A program made the position numbers and the translations under genes. A DNA stretch of 64,000 bases from Serratia marcescens. Lineage in GTDB: Bacteria; Pseudomonadota; Gammaproteobacteria; Enterobacterales; Enterobacteriaceae. Position 1 is the first letter of the stretch. Each line of letters begins with the position of its first letter. Shown one piece after another: positions 29,401 to 42,725 of the stretch. The stretch is taken from positions 1,922,001 to 1,986,000 of the forward strand of contig NZ_VFMJ01000001.1 of NCBI RefSeq assembly GCF_006715005.1, read 5' to 3'. The notes under the pieces were generated by a model. That model did no database searches, was not told the DNA's origin, and worked only from the letters and a program-made list of their open reading frames with translations.

Positions 29401-29578
29401 CAAATTCGGCGGAAATAGCCTCAAGCCCCCATTGGCGGTTAAACTCAGCGGTTTTCCAACTGTCAGGCGCGCCCAACCGACCGGGATCCTGATAAGCGGC
29501 AAGAGAAGAATGAATGGATAAGCCATAACAACCCAGAAAAACGCAATACGCTAACTTCAATTTTCTATTAAGTTTCAT
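26441..29578 (-). CDS. Subtilisin-type autotransporter serine protease (Ssp family)
   Basis: A 1045-residue secreted protease built as signal peptide (1 to about 27, ending SSLAA), S8 subtilase passenger, passenger-associated repeat region (GGLTKTGAGTLALLGNNTY near 460) and a C-terminal beta-barrel of about 270 residues ending in Phe (GLTWRF). The triad is Asp76 (IGIIDN), His112 (GDHGTHVAGIA) and a Ser near 341 (GTSMAAPHVTG). Length and triad positions match the Serratia marcescens Ssp exoprotease as I recall it. ATG 29578 is chosen over the ATG four codons earlier because GGAG lies six to seven bases before it. The barrel inserts in the outer membrane and delivers the protease outside the cell. 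Confidence 0.93.
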   Translation of the reverse strand: MKLNRKLKLAYCVFLGCYGLSIHSSLAAYQDPGRLGAPDSWKTAEFNRQWGLEAISAEFAYARGYTGKGITIGIIDNAILSHSEFAGKLTRLDNGSYNFSYDKQDNMSFGDHGTHVAGIAAAKRDGGGMHGVAFDADIIGTKLNDYGNRNGREALIQSAARVINNSWGIAPDIRLDAKGDIIWLPNGRPDYVAFVKSEVIGEMMRNKASVEWGSEQPVPTGAHSAMPTLLRAARHGKLIVFSAGNYNNYNIPEAQKSLPYAFPDVLNNYLIVTNLSDENTLSVSSTSCGQTASYCVSAPGSDIYSTVGRLESNTGGAVNREAYNKGELSLNPGYGNKSGTSMAAPHVTGVAAVLMQRFPYMSADQISAVIKTTATDLGVAGIDNLFGWGRVNLRDAINGPKMFITQEDIPQEYYVPGSYSEKQFVVNIPGLGNIVEPGTSVERRCTSSECDFDSWSNDISGHGGLTKTGAGTLALLGNNTYRGDTWVKQGVLAINGSVASNVYIENSGTLSGEGTVGAFRAVRGGSVAPGNGIGTLHVLHDAIFDRGSQYNVEVADNGRSDKIDARRAFLNGGSVNVSLEHSKNLLSQNEAQSLLGNKYTILTTTDGVNGRFENANPAYPFVNVTLDYQGNDVGLGITRTAARFDTLASTENEKAVARAVETLNATEPVTETVKRSVAAPTAEALNALQSDEGKAQADTEDAGVVTGHPVYESFLGFTSARELQQATRQLSGQVHADMASAQINESRYLRDAATERLRQAEGRRIASDIKADDNGAWAKLLGNWGHASGNDNATGYQTSTYGVLLGLDGELFDDGRLGVMTGYTRTSLDGGYQSDAHSDNYHLGLYGDKRFGALALRAGGTYTWHRIDTSRSVNYGAQSDREKASYNARTGQLFIESGYDWSNDVANLEPFANLAYTHYRNEGISEQGGAAALRGDKQSQSATASTLGLRADTQWQADSVAIALRGELGWQHQYGKLERKTQLMFKRTDAAFDVNSVPVSRDGAILKAGVDVAVNKNAVLSLGYGGQLSSNHQDNSVNAGLTWRF

Positions 29579-30240
29579 TTTACGCTCCATGTTTATTTAT
29601 ACCCAGAAGAAAACTTACGTTTGAACCGCCCTGCGACCTCCCTTGATAGTGAAACAACAGATAGCGCATGCAGACCCGATACGGGCCGCATGAGAAGACA
29701 TGCTGAGTGACGAAAACTTGTGCGGGCAGACAAGAGTATGCCGCCGCGCCTGGCACCTATGGCGCTGAGAGGCAAACAGGGGGCGAATGTACGTTTATCG
29801 GCGCCGTTACGCCGGGGCAGCTCGGCCATCTGGCCGGAGCGCGAGAATCAGACAGTGGGTGCATCTCGCTTAATCATCCAATTTTGTTAATGATTTTCAT
29901 TCGCGAGGCTATCTTATACGTAAGCAAAGTGTCAACAGATGAAACAAAACATTTCTTGATTTACATCATGTATCTTCAGATAAGCCAACTGGGAAGGGGC
30001 ATAGGCGGCTGCTTAAACGTGCATAAAATGGCGTTTATCACCGTCTGGGCTGCGTTTTTTGTCAGCGTTACCGCATAGAGCACGCTGAAGAGCGTTCGGG
30101 AGAGCATCATGGCGACTGAACATTTAGCCCTATAGAAACATCAAGAATGGTTAATTTTCACGACAACAACACACCGTGGTCCGATCACTTATTTTTCGCT
30201 GCAATATAAGGGGGGCTTATAAATAACAGGAGTATTCCTA
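29579..30240. promoter_or_regulatory. Gene-free 660-base region with Fur-like and FNR-like sites
   Basis: No credible gene is seen in this gap between the autotransporter (minus) and the 41-codon peptide ORF (plus). GTTAATGATTTTCATTCGC at 29886-29904 matches the 19-base Fur consensus at 14 positions. TTGATTTACATCAT at 29956-29969 matches the FNR consensus at nine of ten fixed bases. A minus-strand TTGACA at 29930-29935 could be a -35 for the protease gene, though no good -10 follows. The open frame 29707-30078 has neither ribosome site nor family resemblance. Confidence 0.45.
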
Positions 30241-30366
30241 ATGCGTTCACGCTGGATGTATTCCATGCTAGCGGGCTTATTTTTAGCCGCACCCGCTGGC
30301 TATTCCCAATTTCATTGGCAAGACTATATTGAAAGAAGCTCTGCTATAGAGCGAGAATATGGGTAA
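30241..30366 (+). CDS. Putative 41-residue secreted peptide
   Basis: An ORF of 41 codons beginning MRSRWMYSMLAGLFLAAPAG, with a textbook AGGAG (30228-30232) eight bases before the ATG. The first 19 residues form a signal peptide: basic start, hydrophobic core, and an A-P-A cleavage site before Gly20. The predicted mature part is 22 residues, aromatic and charged (contains QFHWQDYIERSSAIEREYG). I do not recognise the family. It ends 19 bases before the preferred start of the GGDEF-EAL gene, so both could be on one transcript and the peptide could act as a periplasmic partner or leader. It could also be a chance ORF. Confidence 0.5.
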   Translation: MRSRWMYSMLAGLFLAAPAGYSQFHWQDYIERSSAIEREYG

Positions 30367-30385
30367 TTTTCCGAGGAAAGGCCGC

Positions 30386-32491
30386 ATGACCCTGTTGCCC
30401 AAGCAAACCAATAACAAAAATCCGATTACTCTCTATAGCGAAATCGTAGACGACTTGCCCGGTCTGATTTGCTTCGGCAACCGCCTTGGCGGCTACTTTA
30501 ATAAACAGTGGCGCGACTATACCGGCGCAATGACCGGTGAGCACGGCGCCGCTGACTGGCTCGATGCCCTTCACCCCGACGATCGCGAGCGGCTGGCGGC
30601 ACAATGGCGCCAGGCGATCGTGGCCCTCTCCTCGTTCGCCGGCGAGGCACGCCTGCGCGATCGCAGCGGCACCTACCGTTGGTTTATGCTGGCGTTTAAC
30701 GCCCGGCAGGACGGCATGGCGCTGGAGCCCAGCTGGTACCTCACGGCGACCGACATCCATCCGCAAATGCTGCAGCGCCAGAAAAATGTTCAGACGCTCT
30801 CTATCCAGCAAGACATGCTGGACGCCAGTGTCGACTGCATCAAAGTGATCAATCACGACGGCACGCTGCGCCACATGAACCGTTCCGGCAGCCTGGCGCT
30901 CGGTCTTGATCCGGCGCAAAAAGAGTTTGGCATGCCCTGGCTGGGCCTGCTGTCACCCGAGATCCGGCGCCGCGGCCGCAAGGCGCTGCGCAGCGTCAGA
31001 TCAGGAAAAAATGCGCGCTTCACGGGATTGAGCGTGACGCCGCAGGGTAAAAAACAGCATTGGGACAACATTCTCACGCCGGTCAGCGACGAACGCGGTA
31101 CCGTGGCCGAGATCTTGTGCGTCTCGCGTGACGTGACTTCGCAACGCGTGATGGAACAACGTCTGTTGCTCGCCAGCGAATATGACGAATTGACCGGCCT
31201 GCCCAATCGGCGCTTATTCAAGAAGAAACTGAAGCAAGAGATGAAGCGCGCCCTGCACGGCAACAAGTCGCTCGGGCTGATGCTGCTGGATCTTGACCAC
31301 TTCAAGCTGGTGAACGACACGCTGGGCCACGCGGCGGGCGATCATCTGCTGCGGGTTTTGGGCAAAAGGCTCAGCATCTGCATGAATACGCACTCGTTCG
31401 TCTCTCGCCTCGGCGGCGATGAGTTCGCCGTCGTGATCAGCGACGTCGAAAACGAGCAGGATATTTTCCGCATCGCCAACAAGTTTCTGCTGCAGCTGGA
31501 GACGCCGATCACTCACGGCGGCAAGACGCTGCATTGCGGCATGAGCATCGGTGGCGCCATCTATCCCAAAGACGCCCGCGACGCTTCGGAACTGATGAAA
31601 TGCGCCGATACCGCGCTGTATGAGCTGAAAGACGGCGGCCGCGGCGGCATCTATATGTTCGACCGTAAGATGATGGACAAGGCGCGCGCCCGCGCCAGCC
31701 AGCTCAACTACGCGCGCCAGATCGTGCGCGACAACTGCATCCGCCCCAGCTACCAACCGAAGGTCAGCCTCATCGACGGCAGCATCGTCGGCTTTGAAGC
31801 CTTACTGCGCTGGCACTGCCCGATCAACGGCGTGCAGCTGCCGGCGACGGTGAGCGAGGCGTTCAACGACTACGAGCTGGCGACCAAAATCAGCGAAGCC
31901 ATGCAGCTGAAGGTCTTCGCCGATATCGCCCGCTGGCGCGCGGCGGGCGTGGCGGTGCGGCCCATCTCGCTGAACGTGTCGCCGATCGAGTTTTTACGCG
32001 ACAACTACGCCGAAACTTTCCTGCAGCGCCTGCTGAAATTCAGCATTCCCCACCACCTGATCGAACTGGAAGTGACCGAGCACGCGTTCAACAAACACGG
32101 CTCGAAGTACGTGCTGCGCGCGTTGCAAATGCTCAAGGAGATGGGCATCCGCATCGCGCTGGACGACTTCGGCACCGGCCACTCCTCATTCAGCCATATC
32201 ATGGATTATCCGCTGGACTGCATTAAGCTGGACTGCGACTTCGTTCAACGTATGAATACCGAACCGGCGATCCTGGCGATCGTGGAAAGCATCGGCATCC
32301 TCGGTCAAAAGCTGTCGATCGATATCATCGCCGAGGGCGTGGAAACCGAGCAACAGCGGCAAACGCTGTGCGAAGCCGGTTTCCATATTGGCCAGGGTTT
32401 TCTGTTCAGCCGGGCGGTGGAATCCCAGCGGGTGCCCGAAATGCTGCAGGCGATACGACAACCCGCCAAAGGCGGTATAACGAATCGTTAA
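30386..32491 (+). CDS. PAS-PAS-GGDEF-EAL cyclic-di-GMP signalling protein
   Basis: A 701-residue cytoplasmic protein without obvious membrane segments. Two PAS domains occupy about 10-130 and 135-250, followed by GGDEF (SRLGGDEFAVV, motif near 343-347) and EAL (FEALLRW near 471). The GGDEF motif is intact but the inhibitory RxxD site five residues earlier is missing (NTHS), so no product inhibition through that site. The EAL domain keeps LNVSP, ELEVTEH, DDFGTGHS, IKLDCDF and IIAEGVETE, so it may hydrolyse c-di-GMP. ATG 30359 is in frame, but ATG 30386 has GAGGAAAGG just before it and is preferred. Confidence 0.9.
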   Translation: MTLLPKQTNNKNPITLYSEIVDDLPGLICFGNRLGGYFNKQWRDYTGAMTGEHGAADWLDALHPDDRERLAAQWRQAIVALSSFAGEARLRDRSGTYRWFMLAFNARQDGMALEPSWYLTATDIHPQMLQRQKNVQTLSIQQDMLDASVDCIKVINHDGTLRHMNRSGSLALGLDPAQKEFGMPWLGLLSPEIRRRGRKALRSVRSGKNARFTGLSVTPQGKKQHWDNILTPVSDERGTVAEILCVSRDVTSQRVMEQRLLLASEYDELTGLPNRRLFKKKLKQEMKRALHGNKSLGLMLLDLDHFKLVNDTLGHAAGDHLLRVLGKRLSICMNTHSFVSRLGGDEFAVVISDVENEQDIFRIANKFLLQLETPITHGGKTLHCGMSIGGAIYPKDARDASELMKCADTALYELKDGGRGGIYMFDRKMMDKARARASQLNYARQIVRDNCIRPSYQPKVSLIDGSIVGFEALLRWHCPINGVQLPATVSEAFNDYELATKISEAMQLKVFADIARWRAAGVAVRPISLNVSPIEFLRDNYAETFLQRLLKFSIPHHLIELEVTEHAFNKHGSKYVLRALQMLKEMGIRIALDDFGTGHSSFSHIMDYPLDCIKLDCDFVQRMNTEPAILAIVESIGILGQKLSIDIIAEGVETEQQRQTLCEAGFHIGQGFLFSRAVESQRVPEMLQAIRQPAKGGITNR

Positions 32492-32516
32492 ACCAGGCAC
32501 CGCCTATTCTGTATTC

Positions 32517-32531
32517 GGGGGCTTTGCCCCC
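32517..32531. terminator. Small hairpin after the GGDEF-EAL gene
   Basis: GGGGGC (32517-32522) and GCCCCC (32526-32531) around TTT, 26 bases after the stop codon. It lacks a real T tract (ATATTTCCC follows), so termination is uncertain. Confidence 0.35.
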
Positions 32532-32571
32532 ATATTTCCCACTGTTTTTTCACCACTCCCGCACCGAGATA

Positions 32572-32591
32572 TTTGTGAGAACCCTCACAAA
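32572..32591 (+). promoter_or_regulatory. Consensus CRP (cAMP receptor protein) site
   Basis: TTTGTGAGAACCCTCACAAA contains TGTGA (32574-32578), six bases, and TCACA (32585-32589), a perfect core match to the CRP consensus with eight-base symmetrical arms. It lies 173 bases before the first gene of the glycosyltransferase/radical SAM cluster. Weak -10-like sequences follow (for example TATCTT at 32601), so the start point is not fixed. Confidence 0.65.
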
Positions 32592-32764
32592 GCATAAACG
32601 TATCTTTACATTTTTGAACGGTTAAGCTTCCGTTCTGTCGGATTTGAGTGTATTCCAGAGCGTCAAAGCGATTTTTTTTCCACTCAATTGGGAACGTTAC
32701 CGGAGACTTGTTAAAAAATAGTTAATCCAAATCAATGCACTACTCAATGGCAGGAGGTTCTGCG

Positions 32765-34141
32765 ATGCACGCTAGGCAAGAGAAGAATGCAATGTTCATT
32801 TCGTTCGATGCCGTCTCGGTCTCAGGGATCACGGTAGAAGCAATGAAGATTGCCAAACGACTGCAAGCATGTGGATTTCGGTCATATCTTGATCTGGGAT
32901 ACGACATCAAGATTGATAAGGGAAACTTTAATAAATCCTATAGACATGAGCATGATATTTACCGGGATGTCTTTACGCTTGTCCGCCTGGACGGCATCAC
33001 GTCGATTCCGGACTATCACCCCGCCTTTCTGGACTACGCACACGCGGCGCTGATCGGCCAGAAAACGCCCATTGACGATGAAGAAAAAGCCGGCTTGTTG
33101 CGCACTATTGCGCTGGCGGCACGGCAACTTGCGGATCGCCTCATCGCCCAATGGGAAGCGCTTGCGATCAGCCATGTGGTGGTGGAAAACGGCACGCTGC
33201 CGGAAAACATTATCTATACCAAGGCACTGTATCTTGCGATAGAAGACTATGGCCGACGCTATCAATTGACACGTTTCGTGATATGGCGCGATCATGACCT
33301 GATGTGGAACAGTGAAAAAAAGGTGCTCAAATACGGCCCCCCACCTTATTCTCACGCCATCAAACCTATCGCTTCAAAATACATTACCTATGTCACGCTC
33401 AATCACGATCTGAAGCAGAAGCTTGAGGCCTGGTGCAACCATGATGTCCATGTCGAGGTAAAGAAAAACACCTATGATTTCTCGGAAAGTCTCGAAAGGA
33501 TAAACTGCAGAAAGCAGATTAATATAAGTGAAAATGACATTCTCATTGCCAGAACCACCCGTATAATCCCCCAGAAAAGATTAGACCGAGATATTGTACT
33601 GGTCAGCAGGCTTAACGCTTTATTTATACGTAACAACAACGTTCGCCGCGTCTATTTGGCGATCGCCGGCAATGAATATGAGGATCCATCATGTTATTTG
33701 CAGCTCGCCAAATTGGCGCAGGAACTGCAAGTTCTCCCCTACGTCAAATTTGTCGGCATGCTTCCCCATGCCAGTATGCGTTCGCAAAGTGATACGCTTT
33801 GCATAGAAGATCTCTATTACTCCTGCGATTTGGTCTCTTTTCTCACCTCATATGACTATGACAGCTACGGCAATCCCATTGGCGAAGCGGTCAGCTGCCG
33901 GCGCTGCTATATCGCCACCAGCTACGAGTATTACCATGAGGTCTATGGCCAGCACGGCTTTGAAGCCCCTATCATGACGATCTCTGAGTTGCACGACGGT
34001 TTGCCAAGTGACGAATTCGTCGACGAACTCTATCAATTTATTAATAACAAAGAAAAAATGAGACGCGTAGCGGAAAACAATTTCACGCTGGGAAAACGAG
34101 TACTGTCAAACAACGTCATGGAATATTTAAATATTAGTTAA
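32765..34141 (+). CDS. GT-B fold glycosyltransferase (group 1-like)
   Basis: A 458-residue protein with two Rossmann-like halves. The C-terminal half shows features of family-4-like transferases: ILIARTTRIIPQKRLDRDIVLV near 265-285, VKFVGMLPHASM, and the donor-binding segment SYGNPIGEAVSCRRCYIATSYE near 375-396, where the Glu of GEAV fits the nucleotide-sugar site. ATG 32765 is chosen because AGGAGG (32752-32757) lies seven bases before it; two earlier in-frame ATGs have nothing comparable. The gene is more AT-rich than its surroundings, which may mean transfer. It opens the unexplained cluster. Donor and acceptor are unknown. Confidence 0.78.
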   Translation: MHARQEKNAMFISFDAVSVSGITVEAMKIAKRLQACGFRSYLDLGYDIKIDKGNFNKSYRHEHDIYRDVFTLVRLDGITSIPDYHPAFLDYAHAALIGQKTPIDDEEKAGLLRTIALAARQLADRLIAQWEALAISHVVVENGTLPENIIYTKALYLAIEDYGRRYQLTRFVIWRDHDLMWNSEKKVLKYGPPPYSHAIKPIASKYITYVTLNHDLKQKLEAWCNHDVHVEVKKNTYDFSESLERINCRKQINISENDILIARTTRIIPQKRLDRDIVLVSRLNALFIRNNNVRRVYLAIAGNEYEDPSCYLQLAKLAQELQVLPYVKFVGMLPHASMRSQSDTLCIEDLYYSCDLVSFLTSYDYDSYGNPIGEAVSCRRCYIATSYEYYHEVYGQHGFEAPIMTISELHDGLPSDEFVDELYQFINNKEKMRRVAENNFTLGKRVLSNNVMEYLNIS

Positions 34142-34222
34142 ACGTCGATATCACTTGATGTGACACTTCACTTTCAGACAAGCCATTTCTAACTGTGGAC
34201 TTTCATTAGCCCTGGAGGATTT

Positions 34223-35500
34223 ATGCGTGATACTGTTTTTGTGTCTGTCGTACTGCCCGTTTATAATGAAAGCGACCGTATCGAGGCGGTTTTGCTTTCT
34301 CTATTCAATCAGAATACCAAGAATGAATTAATCACCCACGACACTTACGAGCTGATTATTGTCGATAATAACTCCACCGATGACTCCGTCGCTAAAATAA
34401 ATGCTTTTAGTGAAAGACATCCGGTTATGGATATTCTTGTTATCGACGAGAAGGTACAGGGGGTCTCTTCGGCCAGAAAACGCGGTATGGATTATGCGTC
34501 GCTGCGATCCAAAGCCCGCGATAGCCGGCTGGGAAAAAAACGCAAGCACTATATCGTTTCCGCCGATGCCGATTGCACCGTGGATACATTTTGGCTTTAC
34601 GAACTGGTGAATACCATGCTCGATCAACAAGGTGACCTGGGCACCTGCAACTATTACTACAACCCCGTAGATTTTGAGCAACGCCCCAACCTGTTCCGCG
34701 AGATCCAAAAAACGCTGCGTCTGCGTGAATTCTCATTCTCCCTGTTCGGCGGCTTCCCCGACGGCAAAGGGTTCGGGGTGGAGCGCAGCCTGTATGACGC
34801 GGTAGGCGGCATTGAAATCTTCTATCAGCTCAACAACGGTCGTTTTGTCGAGCACCTGTCCGACGACTGGGATTTCGGCATTAAGGTTATCGCCTACGGC
34901 GGCAAACCGGTTTACGCCCGGCATGCTTACGTTGAGATCAACAGCCGTCGGGTCGACACCCTCCTCGACGAGGTAATCAACGGCATCGCCTACGGCAAAG
35001 ACGGCATCATTATCATGAAAGACGTCCGGCCGGACGTTGAGCGGCAGAAAACCGTACTGGCGGACGCCACACCGGCGGAGGCGAAACTGGCCTGGGATTA
35101 CTCGGTCAAGGACTACACGCCCAAGAATATCTTACTGCCCGTGCTGCTCAACCCGTATCTGCTGTTGGAAAACAGCGAAGTGCGCGATTTCTTCTCCGGC
35201 CCGCTGGCCGACCGCCTCTACCGCCGCATTCACGAACTGAAACACGAGATGCGCATCATCGATTTCAAACCAATTCATGCCTACAAAACCCCCGCCTATC
35301 GGCTCTACCTTGAGTTTCGCGATGCGCTGTTTGCCGTCATGCGCCGCGCCGTCGGTGACGATATCGGTTTCCCGCCCACATTGCCGGCCTGTTTCGACGC
35401 GGTCAACGACGATGATTTCCCCCGCTTTGTTTATTACTTCTGTGAAGACCGCGAGTCCGGCGAAGCACATAACTATTTCGGTAATGGAGGGGTCTTCTGA
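34223..35500 (+). CDS. GT2 family (GT-A fold) glycosyltransferase
   Basis: A 425-residue transferase beginning with the GT2 hallmark VSVVLPVYNESDRI, then IIVDNNSTDDS near 47-57, an Asp-rich metal motif SADADCT near 112-118 (DxD), and a C-terminal DDWDFGIKVIAYGG that fits the acceptor-side catalytic Asp region. No transmembrane segment is seen, so it is likely cytosolic and acts on a soluble or membrane-peripheral acceptor. GGAGGA precedes the ATG. The stop overlaps the start of the radical SAM gene by one base, tying the two enzymes together. It follows the GT-B gene by 81 bases. Confidence 0.83.
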   Translation: MRDTVFVSVVLPVYNESDRIEAVLLSLFNQNTKNELITHDTYELIIVDNNSTDDSVAKINAFSERHPVMDILVIDEKVQGVSSARKRGMDYASLRSKARDSRLGKKRKHYIVSADADCTVDTFWLYELVNTMLDQQGDLGTCNYYYNPVDFEQRPNLFREIQKTLRLREFSFSLFGGFPDGKGFGVERSLYDAVGGIEIFYQLNNGRFVEHLSDDWDFGIKVIAYGGKPVYARHAYVEINSRRVDTLLDEVINGIAYGKDGIIIMKDVRPDVERQKTVLADATPAEAKLAWDYSVKDYTPKNILLPVLLNPYLLLENSEVRDFFSGPLADRLYRRIHELKHEMRIIDFKPIHAYKTPAYRLYLEFRDALFAVMRRAVGDDIGFPPTLPACFDAVNDDDFPRFVYYFCEDRESGEAHNYFGNGGVF

Positions 35501-36948
35501 TGAATGACGAAGCCTTGCAATCGTTATTGGATATCGATGAAAACTACCCTACGCCGCAGGTGAACGCTTTCCTGGCGCAACCGCAAAACCGGGCCTTTCT
35601 GGAGTATGTGCATAAGGATCCGTTCGGCTGTCACGTGTTCCCCGGCGATATCGTCGACTATCCGCTGTCCGCGTTTTTTACCGACATGGAAGCCGACATT
35701 CGTCAGGCGGGCAAAATCCATCTCTGGGCCTATATCCCAACCTGCCGCTATCGCTGCCATTTTTGCCAGTACCCCACGGTGATACTCAATCCCAAGGCGC
35801 CCGCCTCTCAGGAGGTATTCCGCGATTTGGTCGACTTCAATATCAAAGAGGCTCGAATGTGGCTGGCGCGCGTGCCCAGCCTGGCCGAGGTGGAAATCGG
35901 CGAGTTCAACGTCTTCGGCGGCACGCCGTCCCTGCTGCCGGAGCCGGAACTACGCCGTATGATGGCCTTCTACTACAGCCACTTTAACTTCGCTAACGCC
36001 ACCCTGCGTTTCGAAGGAGAGCCAGGCACCCTGAATAAAGCCTATCTGACGCTGTTGAAAGAGCTCGGCTTCAGCAAAATCAGCTTCGGTACCCAGTCCT
36101 TCAATGATGACATCATCACCGCCTGCGGGCGCATGCATTCGGCCGAGGAATGCGTGGAAACCATTTATCATGCGCGTGCACTCGGCATCGATTGGGTCAG
36201 CGTGGATCTCATCTATGGCATGCTGGGGCAAAGCGTGGACGACGTAAAATACGACATGGAAAAGACCCTTGCGCTGGATCTGTCACATGTCGTCTGCACC
36301 AAGCTGCACATGGATGAGTTTATTAAAAATCGCACCGGCGTCTCGGGCGAACGCGAAAGCCTGTGGCAGAAAAAGGGGCTGATCAGTGTCAATAACATGC
36401 GCTTCCCAGGATTGGGCAAGCAGTACCAAATGCGCGAACTGGTCGAAAGATACCTGAACGACGGCTATACCGAACACCCCACCATGTACTTTCACCGCAA
36501 TGATCAACAACCGGAAAAGTGGAAGGCGCTGATCACCGATCTCGACAAACAGTATCCGGAAGTGGCGATCGGTTTGGGCGGCAGTTCCAAATCGACGCGA
36601 TCCGAAGCCATCAACCTCACCGGTTACAAGAAATACAAGGACGCGCTCAACGAAGATCGGCTGCCCATCGAGGAAAGCCGCGGTTTCTCTCCGATCCAGC
36701 GCGAAGTGAACGCTTTCAAAATGGCGCTCTCCACCTTGCTGCCGGTGGACGATCGGGTGTTTAAACGGCGCTTTGACGGCAACAGTCTGTTTGCTAACCC
36801 GGTCATCCGCCACACGTTGAAAACTTTGGTGGATAAAGCGTTGGTCACCGTCGATGGCCCGTGCGTCAGGCTAACGCCCATCGGCGTCACGCTGGTTGAA
36901 GCCATTATCAATACCCAATTTTCCGCAGAATTCCCCCATCAGGAGTGA
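35500..36948 (+). CDS. HemN-like radical SAM protein
   Basis: A 482-residue enzyme with the radical SAM cysteines Cys82, Cys86 and Cys89 (TCRYRCHFCQYP) and the HemN-type FNVFGGTPSLLPE motif near 132-144, followed by LRFEGEPGTLNKAYL and SFGTQSFND, as in the coproporphyrinogen dehydrogenase superfamily. The cysteine after the third (HemN has CxxxCxxC-x-C) is replaced (CQYP), and the first 75 residues do not resemble HemN. A winged-helix-like C-terminus is present. Proteins of this class include methyltransferases and ring-forming enzymes of natural-product pathways as well as haem enzymes. Its setting among glycosyltransferases suggests a biosynthetic role. Start: GGAGGGG a few bases before the ATG. 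Confidence 0.82.
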   Translation: MNDEALQSLLDIDENYPTPQVNAFLAQPQNRAFLEYVHKDPFGCHVFPGDIVDYPLSAFFTDMEADIRQAGKIHLWAYIPTCRYRCHFCQYPTVILNPKAPASQEVFRDLVDFNIKEARMWLARVPSLAEVEIGEFNVFGGTPSLLPEPELRRMMAFYYSHFNFANATLRFEGEPGTLNKAYLTLLKELGFSKISFGTQSFNDDIITACGRMHSAEECVETIYHARALGIDWVSVDLIYGMLGQSVDDVKYDMEKTLALDLSHVVCTKLHMDEFIKNRTGVSGERESLWQKKGLISVNNMRFPGLGKQYQMRELVERYLNDGYTEHPTMYFHRNDQQPEKWKALITDLDKQYPEVAIGLGGSSKSTRSEAINLTGYKKYKDALNEDRLPIEESRGFSPIQREVNAFKMALSTLLPVDDRVFKRRFDGNSLFANPVIRHTLKTLVDKALVTVDGPCVRLTPIGVTLVEAIINTQFSAEFPHQE

Positions 36949-36951
36949 ATG

Positions 36952-37761
36952 ATGACCACAACCGCCTCCAAACCTAAACCGGTATTCAGCTTCTATTACA
37001 TCGGCATCGATACCGAAGCCGGCGTAACGCAACAACAGTTTGAAACCTTTGTCCGCGAAAAAGGCGTACATATCCCCTGTTATCCCGGCTGGCGCTGGAC
37101 GTTGTTGCGCGGCCTGCGCGGCGAGCGCGTCGGGCAATACCTGATGCTGTACGAGATTGACAGCCCCGAGCAGCGCGATCGTTACGTTACCGCTACCGGA
37201 CAGAGAACGGCGCAAGCGCACGAATTCTGGCGTCAGCATGCCGATGCGCAGGAAATCCTCGCCGAATGGCGAAAACTGGGCACCTACAGTCTGCTGCCGA
37301 CGCTGTTCAGCGATTATCGTCTGCTGGCGGAGAATGAAAGAAGTGACGTGCCGAGTGGCCCGCGTTTTCAAGAACGGCCCGGAGAGGCACCCGAAGCACG
37401 CATTATCGGCATCCACAATCTGGCGCTGCGCGAGGGCGTGACGCCGGCGCAGTTCGAACGTTTTATCGCCGAGAATCACCATCGCATTGAAGATTATCCG
37501 GGCTGGAAGTTTCATTTGCTCAAGGGAGAGCGCGGCAATCGGCTCGACCAGTACGCGGTCATGATGGAAATCGCCAGCCTGGCGGCGCTGGACGTGTTCT
37601 ACCCGGAACCCGACATCGCCACCGCCGAAGCGACAACCTTCGCCAAAGCGCATCGCGACACCAAACAAATGTATGAAGAGTGGAAGCAACTGGCGTCATT
37701 TTCCGGTTCGCCGCAAATTTATACCGACTATCTGTCCGTCGCACAGAGCCGATCGTCATGA
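36952..37761 (+). CDS. Two-repeat ferredoxin-like protein of unknown function (copy A)
   Basis: A 269-residue protein made of two similar halves. Half 1 has GVTQQQFETFVREKG, YPGWRWTLLRGLRGERVGQYL and FWRQ...EWRKLGTYSLLPTLFSDY. Half 2 has GVTPAQFERFIAENH, YPGWKFHLLKGERGNRLDQYA and MYEEWKQLASFSGSPQIYTDY. The predicted beta-alpha-beta-beta-alpha-beta order fits an alpha/beta-barrel (ABM-like) domain. I recognise no named family. ATG 36952 has AGGAG six bases before it; the adjacent ATG 36949 is possible. It follows the radical SAM gene directly and its stop overlaps the MFS start (ATGA). A paralogue follows the MFS gene. It could bind the radical SAM product, a cofactor such as haem, or act as cyclase or isomerase. 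Confidence 0.72.
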   Translation: MTTTASKPKPVFSFYYIGIDTEAGVTQQQFETFVREKGVHIPCYPGWRWTLLRGLRGERVGQYLMLYEIDSPEQRDRYVTATGQRTAQAHEFWRQHADAQEILAEWRKLGTYSLLPTLFSDYRLLAENERSDVPSGPRFQERPGEAPEARIIGIHNLALREGVTPAQFERFIAENHHRIEDYPGWKFHLLKGERGNRLDQYAVMMEIASLAALDVFYPEPDIATAEATTFAKAHRDTKQMYEEWKQLASFSGSPQIYTDYLSVAQSRSS

Positions 37762-38930
37762 TGCTGCATTGGCTAACCGGTGAGGCCACGGAGAATCATC
37801 GCCGGCAAATCGCCACCCGAGCGATATTCTTCCTCGCCGGGTTGGGCATGGCCGCCTGGGCGCCGCTGATCCCTTTCGTAAAAGCACGGTTGGGCATCGA
37901 TGACGGCACGCTCGGTTTGCTGCTGTTTTGCCTCGCCGCCGGCTCCATGGCGATCATGCCCTTCGCCGGTTATCTGATCGCCAAGCTGGGGTGCCGCACC
38001 GTGTTGCTGGGTGCAGGCGCCTTGCTGTGCATCGACTTGCCGTTGTTGGCGTTAATCGATGCTCCGCTGCTGATGGGGGCGGCATTGGGGGTATTTGGCG
38101 CCGTCAACGGCATCATGGATGTGGCGATGAACTCACAGGCGATAATCGTCGAGCGGGAGAGCGGCCAGGCGAAAATGTCCGGTTTTCACGGCTTCTACAG
38201 CCTTGGCGGCATTGCCGGCGCCGGCGGCGTCAGTCTGTTGCTGCTGGCGGGCCTCGCCCCGGCCCTGGCCATCGGCCTGATCGCCATTCTCATCGCGATC
38301 CTGTTGCCGATCGTCGCCGGCGACTTGCTCACGTACGGCGGCATCGGCGAACGGCGACGGGGCAGCGCGCGGTGGGCACTGGCCCACGGCAAGATCCTGT
38401 TTATCGCACTGCTCTGTTTCTTCGTGTTCCTGACCGAGGGGGCGATGCTCGACTGGTCGGCGTTATTCCTTCATGCCGAACGCGGCGTGGCCAAATCGCA
38501 GGCTGGGATGGGGTTCACGCTGTATGCCGTCGCCGTGGCCTGCGGGCGACTGTGTGGCGACCGGCTGATCGGCACCATCGGGCGCTACCGCACTCTGCTG
38601 TTCGGCAGCCTGTGCGCCGCAACGGGATTGCTGTTGACCGTCAGCGTCCCTCTGGCCTGGTCCGCCTTCGTCGGGCTGATGCTGGTCGGCCTGGGCATCG
38701 CCAACATCGTTCCCATTCTGTTCAACGCCGTCGGCAATCAAAAGCAGGTACCGCCTGGCCAGGCGTTTCCCGCCGTAACGCTGGTCGGTTATATCGGTTT
38801 ATTAACCGGCCCGGCGCTGATCGGTTTTATCGCCAAGTACACCTCTCTGACTTTGGCTTTCGGTTGCACGCTGATCTGCCTGGTGCTGGTCAGCATCAGC
38901 GCCAGAGCCGTGACGCGCTCATCTCACTGA
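37758..38930 (+). CDS. MFS transporter
   Basis: A 390-residue inner-membrane carrier with about 12 transmembrane helices. The loop between helices 2 and 3 reads GYLIAKLGCRTVLLGAG, and the domain GAVNGIMDVAMNSQAIIVE with GFHGFYSLGGIAGA resembles the sugar/FucP-like and YbjJ-type MFS subgroup. ATG 37758 overlaps the previous stop codon, whereas the frame extends farther upstream without support. Lying between the two paralogous unknown proteins, it most likely exports the cluster's product or imports its precursor. Confidence 0.82.
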   Translation: MMLHWLTGEATENHRRQIATRAIFFLAGLGMAAWAPLIPFVKARLGIDDGTLGLLLFCLAAGSMAIMPFAGYLIAKLGCRTVLLGAGALLCIDLPLLALIDAPLLMGAALGVFGAVNGIMDVAMNSQAIIVERESGQAKMSGFHGFYSLGGIAGAGGVSLLLLAGLAPALAIGLIAILIAILLPIVAGDLLTYGGIGERRRGSARWALAHGKILFIALLCFFVFLTEGAMLDWSALFLHAERGVAKSQAGMGFTLYAVAVACGRLCGDRLIGTIGRYRTLLFGSLCAATGLLLTVSVPLAWSAFVGLMLVGLGIANIVPILFNAVGNQKQVPPGQAFPAVTLVGYIGLLTGPALIGFIAKYTSLTLAFGCTLICLVLVSISARAVTRSSH

Positions 38931-38952
38931 TTCAATTTGCGAGGATCGTTAA

Positions 38953-39765
38953 ATGAATGTATCAACAACGCCGGTTTTCTCCCTGCACTACGTGGGGATC
39001 AACCTGAAAAGAGGCATCGCCTCGGATCGCTTTGAGGATTTCGTTCGCCGCAAAGGCGTCGCCATCCCAGCCTACCCCGGCTGGCAATGGACGCTGCTGC
39101 GCGGCCTGCGCGGCGAACGTGAAAATCAGTACCTGATGGTTTATCAGGCTAAGGACGCCGCCACCTACGCACGCTATATCGGCGGCAACGGCGAGCTGAC
39201 CGATGAGGCGCACGCCTTTTGGCGGCAGCGCCCGGAGGCAGCTGCACTGATTGAGGAGTGGAAAACCTTCGCGACCTTCGCCGAACTGCCGACCCTTTAC
39301 ACCTGTTACAGCCTGGTGGCGGAGAATAGTCGCAGTTCGTTGCCTCCCGGCCCCAATTACCGCTACCAACCGGGACAGGAGCGCATTCAACGTGTCGTCG
39401 GCATTCATAACCTGGCGCTCAAAGCGCGTGTCTCGCCCCAGCGGTTTGAACGATTCATCACCGACAACATCCACCGCGTGCAAGACTACCCAGGCTGGAA
39501 GTTTCACCTGCTGAAGGGCCAGAGCGGCAACCGCCTGGACCAGTACGCGGTGATGCTGATCATTGAAAGCCTGGCGTCGCTCAACGCATTCCATCCAGAT
39601 CTCGACGTCTCAACCGAGCAAGCGCTCAGGTTCGTGGCGGAGCATCAGGATACCGAACGGATGTACGACGAGTGGAAAACACTGGCGTCGTTCTCCGGCG
39701 CGCCGCAAATCTACACGGATTATCTGGCGATTGGCGGCAACGAGAATCACGCGCATCCGGCGTAA
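38953..39765 (+). CDS. Two-repeat ferredoxin-like protein of unknown function (copy B)
   Basis: A 270-residue paralogue of the protein encoded at 36952. It keeps the same double-repeat plan (GIASDRFEDFVRRKG, YPGWQWTLLRGLRGERENQYL in half 1; RVSPQRFERFITDN, YPGWKFHLLKGQSGNRLDQYA and MYDEWKTLASFSGAPQIYTDY in half 2). Conserved across all four repeats are the YPGW turn, a basic LL(R/K)G loop, and a Gln-Tyr pair. The second halves are the most similar. GAGGAT lies eight bases before the ATG. Two copies in one operon suggest a heteromer or two consecutive steps on related intermediates. Confidence 0.72.
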   Translation: MNVSTTPVFSLHYVGINLKRGIASDRFEDFVRRKGVAIPAYPGWQWTLLRGLRGERENQYLMVYQAKDAATYARYIGGNGELTDEAHAFWRQRPEAAALIEEWKTFATFAELPTLYTCYSLVAENSRSSLPPGPNYRYQPGQERIQRVVGIHNLALKARVSPQRFERFITDNIHRVQDYPGWKFHLLKGQSGNRLDQYAVMLIIESLASLNAFHPDLDVSTEQALRFVAEHQDTERMYDEWKTLASFSGAPQIYTDYLAIGGNENHAHPA

Positions 39766-39772
39766 ACCGAGT

Positions 39773-39791
39773 GGCGGCGTTGAGCGCCGCC
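39773..39791. terminator. G+C-rich hairpin at the end of the unknown cluster
   Basis: GGCGGCG (39773-39779) pairs with CGCCGCC (39785-39791), loop TTGAG, starting eight bases after the stop of copy B. There is no T tract, so it may only stabilise the transcript end. Confidence 0.4.
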
Positions 39792-39976
39792 GCCTTCACG
39801 GCCGTTGTTCGCCGAACGGCGCCCACAGCATGGTTCATCCTCGGTGTCTCAGCGCCGGCGGCGCATCATGATTTTTCCAAGATTGGTTAGTGAATTTTGT
39901 TCGTTCACAGACCTGCGGCCTTCAGAGATAGTGCAACGACCCTGTGACAATCCTAATAATGAAGGTAATTAACATA

Positions 39977-40894
39977 ATGATAGATAGCAAAAAGATGATA
40001 GTGATGGCGGCGCTGCTGAGTTTTTCCGCCGCTGCCGCGCCAGGGGTGGATATCGTCGCCAACGAAACGCCTATCCACACGGCGAAAAGCGCCGAAGCCG
40101 TGGCCAAAATCCCCGCCGGCTTCCGGTTCGTGGAACCCGGTACGCTGACGGTGGCCATTTCCCTGCTGGGCAGCGGCCCGCCGTTCGGCCTGTACGCGCG
40201 CGACAATAAAACGGTGATCGGCAGCGAGGCGGACATCGCGCGCCTGGTGGCCGACGGTTTGGGGTTGAAACTCAAGCTGGTGCCCACCTCGTGGGAAGAC
40301 TGGCCGCTGGGGGTGGCCTCCGGCAAATATGACGCCGCGGTGTACAACATCACCGTGACCAACGAACGCAAGACCAAATTCGATTTCGCCACCTATCGCC
40401 AGGATACGCTGGGGTTCTACGTCAAATCCGACAGTAAAATCACCCAGATCAACACCGCGCCGGATATCGCCGGCAAAAAGATCATCGTCGATTCCGGCAC
40501 CAATCAGGAAGCGGTGCTGCTGGCCTGGGACAAGGAGAACCGCGCCAAGGGACTGGCACCGCTGCAGCCGGTGTACGTCACCGACAAGGCCGCCTCCACG
40601 CTGGCCATTCAGTCCGGCCGCGCCGACGCCACCTTCGGCCCCAACGTCTCCGGCGCCTATCAGGCGCGGCTGACCGGCAAGACCCGATTGGTGGGCATCG
40701 TGCCCGGTGGCTGGCCGAAGACCGCCAACATCGCCGTCACGCTGAAGAAAGGCAACGGCCTGGTGGACGCGGTGCAGGCTTCTCTCAACGGCGCCATCGC
40801 CAACGGCAGCTATCTGCAGGTGCTGGATCGCTGGGCGGAGAGCGACGAGAAGATCGCCCATTCCGAGATTAACCCGCCGGGGCTGGGGGACTAA
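39977..40894 (+). CDS. ABC transporter periplasmic substrate-binding protein (family 3)
   Basis: A roughly 305-residue exported solute-binding protein of the polar amino acid type. A signal peptide (MIVMAALLSFSAAAAPGVDI region) is followed by two lobes with VAISLLGSGPPFGLYARDN, ADIARLVADGLGLKLKLVPTSW and YDAAVYNITVTNERKTKFDF. ATG 39977 is used because it places the basic n-region before the hydrophobic core; 39959 and 39944 are alternatives and no start has a strong ribosome site. No permease or ATPase gene lies next to it, so it must work with a transporter encoded elsewhere. A G+C-rich hairpin follows. Confidence 0.8.
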   Translation: MIDSKKMIVMAALLSFSAAAAPGVDIVANETPIHTAKSAEAVAKIPAGFRFVEPGTLTVAISLLGSGPPFGLYARDNKTVIGSEADIARLVADGLGLKLKLVPTSWEDWPLGVASGKYDAAVYNITVTNERKTKFDFATYRQDTLGFYVKSDSKITQINTAPDIAGKKIIVDSGTNQEAVLLAWDKENRAKGLAPLQPVYVTDKAASTLAIQSGRADATFGPNVSGAYQARLTGKTRLVGIVPGGWPKTANIAVTLKKGNGLVDAVQASLNGAIANGSYLQVLDRWAESDEKIAHSEINPPGLGD

Positions 40895-40902
40895 GGCGTG
40901 AA

Positions 40903-40925
40903 CCGGCCCCGCATCGAGGGGCCGG
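40903..40925. terminator. Hairpin between convergent SBP and AcoR-like genes
   Basis: CCGGCCCC (40903-40910) and GGGGCCGG (40918-40925) with a seven-base loop lie between the two stop codons. No T tract is present. A bidirectional stop or stabiliser is possible. Confidence 0.5.
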
Positions 40926-40949
40926 CTATTGATGATCGGTCGTGACGTT

Positions 40950-42725
40950 TCATTCCGCTACCGCTTTCTGCCTTCCCAGCTTGCGGTACAGCGTGCTGCG
41001 CGAAACGCCGAGCGCCTTCGCCGCCCGGCTGAGGTTGCCGCCCGCCGTGTCGATCGCCGCCTGCAGCTCCTCCAGGCCGGTATCGGCGCTCTCCTGGCGC
41101 GGCGCCAGCACCGCGATGGACTGCGGCAGATCGTCCAGAGTGAGCACCGCATGATCGTCCGCCAGCGCCAGCAGCACCTTGAGCGTACTCAACAGCTGCC
41201 GCACGTTGCCGGGCCACGGGTAGCGCGTCAGCATCGCCAGCGCCTCCGGCAGCAGGCGAATGTCGCGCCGCTCGCCGCCCAGCTCTCGCCACAGCTGCAA
41301 AATGAAGGCTTCCAGCTGCGCCCGCTCTCTGAGCGGCGGAATGCGCAGGCTGTATTCCTGTATGCGGTACAGCAAATCCTCGCGAAATGCCCCCGCCTGT
41401 ACCTGCCGATGCAGATCGTGGTGTGTGGCGCAGACCAGCGCGAAATCGACCGGATAAGCGCTGCGGCTGCCGAGCGGCGTGACCGTTTTTTCCTGTAACA
41501 CCCGCAGCAGCCGCGTCTGCAGGCCCGCCGGCATGTCGCCGATTTCATCGAGGAACAGCACGCCGCCGTCCGCCTCGCGGATCTTGCCGATATACCCTTT
41601 CGGGTTGGCGCCGGTAAACGCCCCCGGGGCATAGCCGAACAGCTCGGACTCGATCAGCGGCTCAGGCAGCGCCGCGCAGTTGATCGCCACGAAGTTGCCG
41701 TTACGCCAGCGGCTCTCTTGAAACAGGTGTCGGCTGAAGTGCTCCTTGCCGCAGCCGGTTTCACCGGTCACGCACAGGGAAAGGCCGGCGTTGAGAATGC
41801 GCAGCGCTTTCTGATGCTGCTCGTCATGCCTTTGCGCCGGCGGTGCAGAACGCAGGGCGCTGACGCGGCGCTGCGGCGCCTCAAGCAGCGAATAATAATG
41901 CCGTTGATTGCCGGCCAGCGTCTGGTGCGGTGCGCCGGAGGGATGTCGCAGCAGGTCGGGGAACAGCTGGGCGAACTCAACCGCGCCGAATGCGGCCGGT
42001 GAAAGCTGGAACTCCAGCATCGCCAGCCGATTGGCGGCGACCAGCACTTCGTCGTGAAACACCAGCAGCAGCTCCTGCGCGCTGCCCAGGCTCCGGGCGT
42101 CGGCGTGCAGGCGCAGCGTCCAGTGACGATCGGCGATCGCACTTCTGACCCAGCGGTGTTCGATATGTCGCACCGCCTGCATGATCAGGTGCTGTGCATC
42201 GCGATACGGCCGCTGCGCGGGTGCGGAAAGATTCAATATCCCGGCAATGTGGCCATCCGGTCGGTAGATCGGCGCGGCGGTGCAGTTCAATCCGGCATTT
42301 TGGTTGAGGTAATGCTGGTCGCCGCGCACTTCGCAGAACGCGCCCAGCGCCAGCGCGGTGCCGATGGCGTTGGTGCCCCGCTCCGCTTCTCCCCACGGGT
42401 TGCCCGGCGCCAGTGCAAAGCGCGATGCCTCATGCAGAAAATCGGTGTTGCCGCGGGTTTCCAGCACCAGTCCATCGGCGTCGGCAATGACCACAATGGC
42501 GGGCTGGCGCGTAATTTGCGCGCCCAGCTGCTCGATCAGCGGCTGCACCCGTTGCGGCACCCAGTCGTTGCGGCTGCGCCGCTCTTCGAGCAACCCGGCT
42601 TTGATGAACGAGATATGCTGGTCGGCGCGCGCCAGGCCGTAGCCCCGGCTGCGCTGCCAGGATTCCGCCAGCGGGTGGGTCAACAAACTGGCGCCCTCAG
42701 TGGGCAAGCGGTCGTCAGGCAACAT
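40950..42725 (-). CDS. Sigma-54-dependent activator, AcoR family
   Basis: A 591-residue enhancer-binding protein: N-terminal GAF-type sensor (about 60-210, with FLHEASRFALAPGNPWGEAERGTNAIGTAL), AAA+ domain with Walker A GETGCGKE, the sigma-54 contact loop GAFTGA and Walker B LFLDEIGDM, and a Fis-type C-terminal helix-turn-helix (AGGNLSRAAKALGVSRSTLYRKLG). ATG 42725 is preferred over the first in-frame ATG because GGAG lies six bases before it. It is divergent from the ExaC-type aldehyde dehydrogenase gene, which has a sigma-54 promoter, so it is almost certainly its activator, probably sensing an alcohol or aldehyde. Confidence 0.9.
   Translation of the reverse strand: MLPDDRLPTEGASLLTHPLAESWQRSRGYGLARADQHISFIKAGLLEERRSRNDWVPQRVQPLIEQLGAQITRQPAIVVIADADGLVLETRGNTDFLHEASRFALAPGNPWGEAERGTNAIGTALALGAFCEVRGDQHYLNQNAGLNCTAAPIYRPDGHIAGILNLSAPAQRPYRDAQHLIMQAVRHIEHRWVRSAIADRHWTLRLHADARSLGSAQELLLVFHDEVLVAANRLAMLEFQLSPAAFGAVEFAQLFPDLLRHPSGAPHQTLAGNQRHYYSLLEAPQRRVSALRSAPPAQRHDEQHQKALRILNAGLSLCVTGETGCGKEHFSRHLFQESRWRNGNFVAINCAALPEPLIESELFGYAPGAFTGANPKGYIGKIREADGGVLFLDEIGDMPAGLQTRLLRVLQEKTVTPLGSRSAYPVDFALVCATHHDLHRQVQAGAFREDLLYRIQEYSLRIPPLRERAQLEAFILQLWRELGGERRDIRLLPEALAMLTRYPWPGNVRQLLSTLKVLLALADDHAVLTLDDLPQSIAVLAPRQESADTGLEELQAAIDTAGGNLSRAAKALGVSRSTLYRKLGRQKAVAE

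Follow-up and report, generated by a model that had tools for sequence, protein, structure and literature searches.

A linked glycosyltransferase and radical SAM core with a separable transporter module in Serratia marcescens

A 64,000-nucleotide stretch of the Serratia marcescens genome (the window; contig NZ_VFMJ01000001.1, positions 1,922,001 to 1,986,000) contains six co-directional genes. They encode two glycosyltransferases (GTs), GT4-like and GT2, a HemN-like radical S-adenosylmethionine (SAM) enzyme, a major facilitator superfamily (MFS) transporter and two paralogous tandem dimeric-alpha/beta-barrel (DABB) proteins. The six genes fall into a three-gene core (GT4, GT2, radical SAM) and a separable accessory module (MFS, two DABB). 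Together they probably represent a horizontally moving two-module small-molecule pathway, in which the core glycosyltransferases would build a soluble glycoside and the radical SAM enzyme would alter it; MFS and DABB would be accessory, and control would be by CRP or by nitrogen fixation. No curated family or paper naming the pathway or its product was found (literature searches covered open-licence PMC papers). The original prediction, an unnamed small-molecule pathway whose genes are linked and acquired, is partly supported: the linked core, the insertion and the lack of a name or product stand, but the genes are not one six-gene pathway. The features are as follows.

32452..39851, no strand: inserted block, approximate extent (homology to the empty site in the congeneric genome G014 runs up to 32451 and starts again at 39852)
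32574..32589, no strand: CRP-type palindrome TGTGA-N6-TCACA (pattern scan)
32735..34141, + strand: GT4-like (GT-B) glycosyltransferase, 468 aa (PF00534 match below cut-off; structure model)
34223..35500, + strand: GT2 (GT-A) glycosyltransferase, 425 aa (PF00535 match; invariant DADC)
35500..36948, + strand: HemN-like radical SAM enzyme, 482 aa, with CxxxCxxC and its own N-terminal region of about 70 aa (Pfam and NCBIfam)
36949..37761, + strand: tandem DABB protein 1 (structure model)
37758..38930, + strand: MFS transporter (Pfam; 37758 is a chosen, putative start codon, the mechanical call beginning at 37680)
38953..39765, + strand: tandem DABB protein 2, 53-55% identical to DABB 1 (fold predicted from that of DABB 1)

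The three core genes are tightly linked and belong together; this follows from their fixed order across genera and their co-occurrence. A one-genome-per-species scan gave 39 loci, and six plasmid loci bring the number examined to 45 (numbered L; congeneric genomes are numbered G). The order GT4-GT2-radical SAM is kept in 43 of them. The exceptions are L050, a contig-end fragment that continues L024, and L051, a remnant. GT4 and GT2 form one fused open reading frame (ORF) in 31 of 43 loci, are separate in 10 and are broken in 2. Among 72,556 plasmid records, exactly 10 carry GT4, and the same ten accessions carry GT2 (at least 80% covered) and the radical SAM gene (51-78% identical over 98-99%). 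The core occurs in gamma-, beta- and alphaproteobacteria, many of them associated with plants. Scattering of the genes in relatives, proposed as a refutation of the original prediction, is not borne out for the core.

The gene trees of GT4, GT2 and the radical SAM enzyme (39 rows) have 21 of 36 splits in common. Sinorhizobium is joined with Paraburkholderia in the radical SAM tree (SH-aLRT 92), pointing to transfer between the alpha and beta rhizobial classes; the corresponding values are 94 in the GT4 tree and 0 in the GT2 tree. In the order sample, the radical SAM and DABB genes were each found in the window's own genome alone (1/197 for both), and the same is true of the phylum sample (1/398 for both). 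A 4-kb stretch of the cluster has no DNA match in E. coli genomes. The search of phages matched 31 records, all below 60% identity, with five rows among the matches listed at 23-25%. Chemotaxis-receptor-like genes lie near 12 of the 45 loci; by a rough estimate this linkage was judged likely to be chance.

The accessory module has a narrower distribution. DABB 1 is present in 28 of 45 loci and DABB 2 in 27, all of them gammaproteobacterial. The 17 loci that lack DABB 1 are the 16 alpha- and betaproteobacterial loci and L024, whose contig ends before DABB 1. In Pseudomonas fragi (L038), DABB 2 and part of MFS are missing. A profile search of 16 alpha- and betaproteobacterial plasmid records or genomes with the core found no DABB protein, while all five gammaproteobacterial controls were positive. 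An MFS-DABB pair also occurs without the core: in eight of eight Pantoea dispersa plasmid records that have a DABB match, an MFS gene (58-59%) lies directly beside a DABB gene, and none of these records is among the ten with the core. One of them (L052, NZ_CP106661.1, 6812-8795) encodes the transporter and one DABB-2-type protein (65% identical to DABB 2) without GT4, GT2 or the radical SAM enzyme. The division into two modules follows from these two findings, the lack of DABB matches in alpha- and betaproteobacterial core holders and the P. dispersa plasmids with MFS-DABB and no core; a single six-gene pathway was rejected in its favour. Relatives of the transporter occur in 365 plasmid records, all below 60%, and the four neighbourhoods examined gave no functional clue.

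All six ORFs lie on the + strand within 32735-39765. Their junctions are, in order, an 81-bp gap, a 1-bp overlap, 0 bp, a 4-bp overlap and a 22-bp gap; these coordinates confirm the six co-directional genes with four overlapping or nearly overlapping junctions that had been described. The true start codon of GT4 may lie a few codons downstream of 32735. GT2, the radical SAM enzyme and MFS score above their Pfam cut-offs and the GT4-like protein just below. The DABB pair has only weak sub-cut-off matches in Pfam and NCBIfam. It had been described as a duplicated pair of no known family; the modelled fold of DABB 1 is tandem DABB. All six genes are under purifying selection (dN/dS 0.05-0.25 against S. 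ureilytica L013 and Ewingella L014, with dS above 1 in the comparisons with Ewingella). An Rfam scan of window positions 30000-42000 gave no match at the gathering threshold.

The block is an insertion within the genus, since the radical SAM gene is found in only 3 of 30 congeneric genomes, the window's own included, and two close relatives have the flanks about 150 bp apart. The S. ureilytica L013 enzyme is 94% identical to that of the window. Two flank markers, the end of an EAL-domain gene (window 31492-32491) and a substrate-binding-protein gene (39944-40894), were located in the 30 genomes, and ten of these flank regions were compared as sequence. Some 7.5 kb separate the aligned flanks in the window genome. 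The spacing is 8.6 kb in G012 and G029 and shrinks to about 150-190 bp in G014, G024, G005 and G015; other genomes have different DNA between the flanks. In G013 (L055), G011 (L056) and G009 (L064), the site is filled by an ORF that by eye resembles a different MFS gene, and the six proteins have no match there. In G012 (L062), the pathway is accompanied by about 1.2 kb of additional DNA, so this chromosomal position appears to be a small hot spot. Near the cluster, on the minus strand, lies a serine-protease autotransporter-like ORF of 1049 aa (window 26441-29590; identified by eye).

The first gene is indeed AT-rich relative to its neighbours, with a GC content of 0.472 compared with 0.529-0.632 for the other five, in a broad rise towards the MFS gene (0.632). 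This had been taken as a sign of acquisition, a reading that does not survive. A gradient of similar shape is found in other hosts, and in every one of the 43 loci with GT4 the gene has a lower GC content than its locus as a whole, with a mean deficit of 9 points. As GT4 is AT-rich in every host, its composition is a property of the gene and no evidence of acquisition.

Control of the cluster seems to differ between hosts. The perfect TGTGA-N6-TCACA palindrome, whose first base is 161 bp 5' of the first start codon, is the sole copy in the 64-kb window (shuffles: mean 0.01). The pattern has 13 sites in the 5.57-Mb genome, and the reversed control pattern has 0. S. ureilytica L013 matches the palindrome exactly and Ewingella L014 deviates from it at one position; no site with 0 or 1 mismatch was found within about 400 bp upstream at the other loci. 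Judged by this site, expression in Serratia and Ewingella appears to be tied to carbon state via CRP.

In rhizobia, expression of the core appears to be tied to nitrogen fixation. This is indicated by published RNA-seq of P. phymatum and by a promoter signature in Sinorhizobium. The orthologues in P. phymatum are BPHY_RS38020 and BPHY_RS38025, that is, Bphy_7706 and Bphy_7707; a search for these tags found PMC8305402 and PMC5979394 alone. Table 1 of the former gives log2 fold changes of -4.07 (Bphy_7706) and -4.98 (Bphy_7707) in nifA-mutant nodules (PMC8305402), and the latter gives -3.6 for Bphy_7707 in rpoN-mutant nodules (PMC5979394). These entries show that expression of the orthologues in nodules depends on NifA and that of the glycosyltransferase also on RpoN. 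The claim that the cluster matches no named system holds for name and product, but beta-rhizobial orthologues are already entered in gene tables and one glycosyltransferase list of these papers (PMC8305402, PMC5979394).

In all five Sinorhizobium/Ensifer loci (L006, L029, L031, L035, L047), a NifA-type element, TGT-N4-T-N5-AC(A/T), lies 78-79 bp upstream of a sigma-54-type promoter element, (T/C)GG(C/T)A(C/T)-N5-TTGC, before GT4. The composite occurs five times in 1,505,602 bases (both strands), always upstream of GT4 (shuffles 0.05); it was loosened after the sites had been seen, and its rarity overstates its significance. Both strict forms are present in one of the five loci (L035). Taken singly, the elements often arise by chance (17.8% and 7.9% of 700-bp stretches). 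In R. jaguaris L008, a match resembling an upstream activating sequence stands alone.

The occurrence of nifH was compared with that of the core, in a search that left out the P. phenoliruptrix plasmid and L046. The same plasmid carries nifH above cut-off in five of the six alpha- and betaproteobacterial plasmid records searched; the exception is Pseudochrobactrum, so that all five rhizobial records are positive. Of ten further rhizobial genomes, six have nifH above cut-off and C. necator has it in two pieces; the remaining three give no match above cut-off, with two short partial matches in one of them. The two Kosakonia are alone in having nifH above cut-off among 12 gammaproteobacterial genomes or records. 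Almost all genomes, among them the 14 controls, give weak sub-cut-off matches, which were left out of the counts. The window genome has no nifH above cut-off and a scan upstream of its copy found no sigma-54 (-24/-12) site; it thus lacks both features by which a NifA/sigma-54 regulon member would be recognised.

The plasmid listing names Mimosa, Calliandra and Argyrolobium as sources; of the remaining rhizobial species with the core, many presumably come from mimosoid legumes. The Kosakonia genomes with nifH (L043, L045) also carry the full six-gene form. Upstream of the core, Paraburkholderia L007, L023, L051 and L068 carry a gene for resistance-nodulation-division (RND) efflux and one for a LacI-type regulator (the type was confirmed in L023); these might be the exporter and regulator of the core in that genus.

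The two glycosyltransferases are recognised in different ways. GT2 is a clear family-2 enzyme, with 77.3 bits against Glycos_transf_2 (PF00535; cut-off 23.3, E 1.8e-21). Its DxD-like motif DADC (D115, A116, D117, C118) is invariant in 19 rows; its C-terminal half is unusually conserved, with no role assigned. GT4 matches the mannosylglucosylglycerate synthase model at E 2.5e-9 with a score of 36 against a cut-off of 640, and a PDB profile search with it gave no match at 1e-3. Its structure model (predicted local distance difference test, pLDDT, 82.8) has a GT-B fold, closest to HepE (Z 24.2 over 346 residues, root-mean-square deviation (rmsd) 4.0) and BshA (Z 24.0 over 348, rmsd 4.4). PimA, sucrose-phosphate synthase and MshA also match, the whole group at Z of about 21-24, and these closest folds include enzymes for small soluble acceptors. 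Inspection of the neighbourhoods by eye showed no conserved gene for a polymerase, flippase or lipid carrier beside the core. A soluble product is suggested by these two observations, the small-acceptor folds and the lack of such neighbours.

Alternatively, the glycosyltransferases could decorate lipopolysaccharide, exopolysaccharide or a glycolipid and the radical SAM enzyme could alter that surface glycan. GT2 and GT4 folds are common in such synthesis (WaaG, HepE, PglA, PimA and TarM are among the matches), and Bphy_7707 is placed under cell wall/membrane/envelope biogenesis (PMC5979394). The missing polymerase, flippase and lipid-carrier neighbours speak against this, and the presence of MFS and DABB proteins in the same unit sits poorly with it; surface glycan modification is unlikely.

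Another alternative, disaccharide (trehalose-type) metabolism, draws on gene neighbourhoods in some hosts. Fungi, insects and nodules are trehalose-rich niches, and the cluster could use, cap or mimic trehalose there. Four Pseudomonas loci (L026, L030, L032 and L049) have same-strand genes for trehalose uptake upstream of the core, and L048 has part of them; treC with a phosphotransferase system (PTS) fusion is confirmed in L030 and a maltoporin-like gene in L026 and L049. Duffyella L005 has treB-treC upstream, and P. sabiae has treS 5 kb downstream of the core. In Pseudochrobactrum, a sugar-type ABC importer, ThuA-domain and Gfo/Idh/MocA genes are directly upstream of the core, but GT2 and the radical SAM gene are broken. 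Moreover, the same short flanking ORF occurs in the two Pseudomonas lineages, which may therefore not be independent, and most loci, that of the window included, have no tre gene beside the core. The trehalose neighbours are a hint of possible disaccharide chemistry; trehalose-type metabolism as the function of the cluster is quite improbable.

The radical SAM enzyme belongs to its superfamily (69.3 bits against Radical_SAM in Pfam, cut-off 29.5), and the three cysteines of its CxxxCxxC motif (residues 82-89) are invariant in 21 rows. HemN has a fourth cysteine (CxxxCxxCxC), and HemW a heme-binding HNxxYW motif. In the motif CRYRCHFCQY, Q-Y takes the place of the fourth cysteine seen in the genome's own HemN-type protein (CHKLCYFCGC); the cysteine context thus differs from HemN, as had been noticed. 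At the HNxxYW position the enzyme has HPTMYF, and the genome's own HemW-type protein has the motif. The NCBIfam HemN model gives 87.1 bits, under its cut-off of 324.95. Identity with HemN or HemW is rejected by the curated cut-offs and the absence of both features, and the genome encodes separate HemN- and HemW-type proteins elsewhere. The best solved-structure relatives by sequence are NocN (E 7.5e-26) and HemN (E 2.6e-22).

In its model (pLDDT 91), DABB 1 folds into two ferredoxin-like repeats within a single chain. The nearest fold is 2pgc (Z 15.5 over 188 residues, rmsd 2.9), followed at Z of about 12 by sulfur oxygenase reductases, an anthrone oxidase-like protein and PenE, and lower by HmoB and HemQ/chlorite dismutase. 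A PDB profile search with the DABB family gave chance-level matches alone. The fold as such shows no function.

Tetrapyrrole (heme) chemistry would join a HemN/HutW-like radical SAM enzyme with DABB heme proteins. The radical SAM enzyme does match HemN, HemW and HutW models, DABB 1 has a weak HmuQ match (E 0.03), and HemQ, chlorite dismutase and HmoB are among the DABB folds. However, all HemN-type models are far below cut-off, the fourth cysteine and HNxxYW are missing, the enzyme is consistently partnered by glycosyltransferases, and searches of hosts that keep the core alone yielded no DABB protein; such chemistry is very unlikely. The least credible alternative is a ribosomally synthesised peptide (RiPP) or peptide-cofactor pathway, in which the radical SAM enzyme modifies and the glycosyltransferases glycosylate one short peptide: radical SAM plus GT is the mycofactocin combination and the MftF model matches GT2 at E 1.1e-6, but only 1 of 704 short ORFs (15-90 aa, up to 600 bp on the upstream or 400 bp on the downstream side of the genes) matched across clade groups, and then between two Pseudomonas groups only, the fused GT4-GT2 of most loci leaves no room between the two genes, and no conserved precursor beside the radical SAM and GT genes was found beyond Pseudomonas.

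The soluble glycoside pathway is the preferred reading. The GT-B enzyme (BshA/MshA/HepE/PimA fold group) and the GT-A enzyme, often fused, would form a soluble glycoside on a small acceptor. When oxygen is low, the radical SAM enzyme would then methylate, oxidise or rearrange it at an unactivated carbon. The MFS carrier may transport the product or a precursor of it. The two tandem-DABB proteins, whose fold is known from cofactor-free monooxygenases and heme/DABB enzymes, may bind, oxidise or detoxify the product.

A number of observations weigh against it. GT4 scores 23.9 bits against Glycos_transf_1 (PF00534; E 3.5e-5), below the cut-off of 26.4, and its closest folds also include the surface-glycan enzymes HepE, WaaG, PimA and TarM. 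Core copies are damaged (frame-broken or fragmentary) in L010, L024, L039, L042, L049 and L051; the pathway may therefore be dispensable or decaying in some hosts, or these may be assembly errors. Co-inheritance does not show function. The absence of the core in P. dispersa refers to plasmid records and the one-genome-per-species scan, not to the strains' chromosomes. No NifA/sigma-54 composite was found within 700 bp upstream in Paraburkholderia, nor upstream in Cupriavidus or R. jaguaris. The lack of such a site upstream of the Paraburkholderia copies means that NifA may act indirectly in P. phymatum.

If the glycoside reading is correct, a cryptic gene set from symbiosis transcriptomics turns into a pathway that is defined and transferable and whose minimal core has three genes. 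P. phymatum would be a tractable test organism and the window genome a second source, without nifH. Part of the NifA regulon would then make a specialised sugar metabolite, nodule chemistry would be linked to free-living gammaproteobacteria, and HemN-like radical SAM chemistry would gain a new glycosyltransferase-linked context. A wider scenario is offered tentatively and is doubtful. In alpha- and beta-rhizobia, the core would make an undescribed nodule glycoside and be switched on by NifA with nitrogenase; in free-living gammaproteobacteria of plants, fungi or insects, it would have been put separately under CRP, and MFS and tandem DABB would export, process or consume the glycoside. P. dispersa-type MFS-DABB strains would be consumers or resistant bystanders of a rhizopine-like currency across three classes.

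Rhizopine (mos/moc) systems combine NifA-linked nodule synthesis with a separable use and transport module. The cluster possibly resembles them in both respects, but no mos or moc gene family is recognised in it. BshA, MshA and mannosylglucosylglycerate synthase, GT4 enzymes with small soluble acceptors, share the GT-B fold; the GT4 of the cluster is only 12-17% identical to BshA and MshA in structural alignments, and no bacillithiol or mycothiol partners are seen. The tandem-DABB cofactor-free monooxygenases (anthrone oxidase-like protein, PenE) share the tandem ferredoxin-like fold over nearly the whole chain, but DABB 1 is 12-14% identical and has no sequence family in common with them, and no polyketide genes are seen at the cluster. 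The HemN, HemW and STM4012 families share the fold and motif of the radical SAM enzyme and give its best NCBIfam scores; the enzyme is far under their cut-offs and has neither the fourth cysteine nor HNxxYW. NocN and NosN are class C radical SAM methyltransferases, which transfer methyl groups with two SAM molecules and act in thiopeptide pathways. NocN, with the same HemN-like core, is the top solved-structure relative of the enzyme, but the relatedness is confined to residues 71-291 and no thiopeptide genes are seen. Among known kinds, the cluster would be a variant of the glycosyltransferase plus radical SAM biosynthetic cluster.

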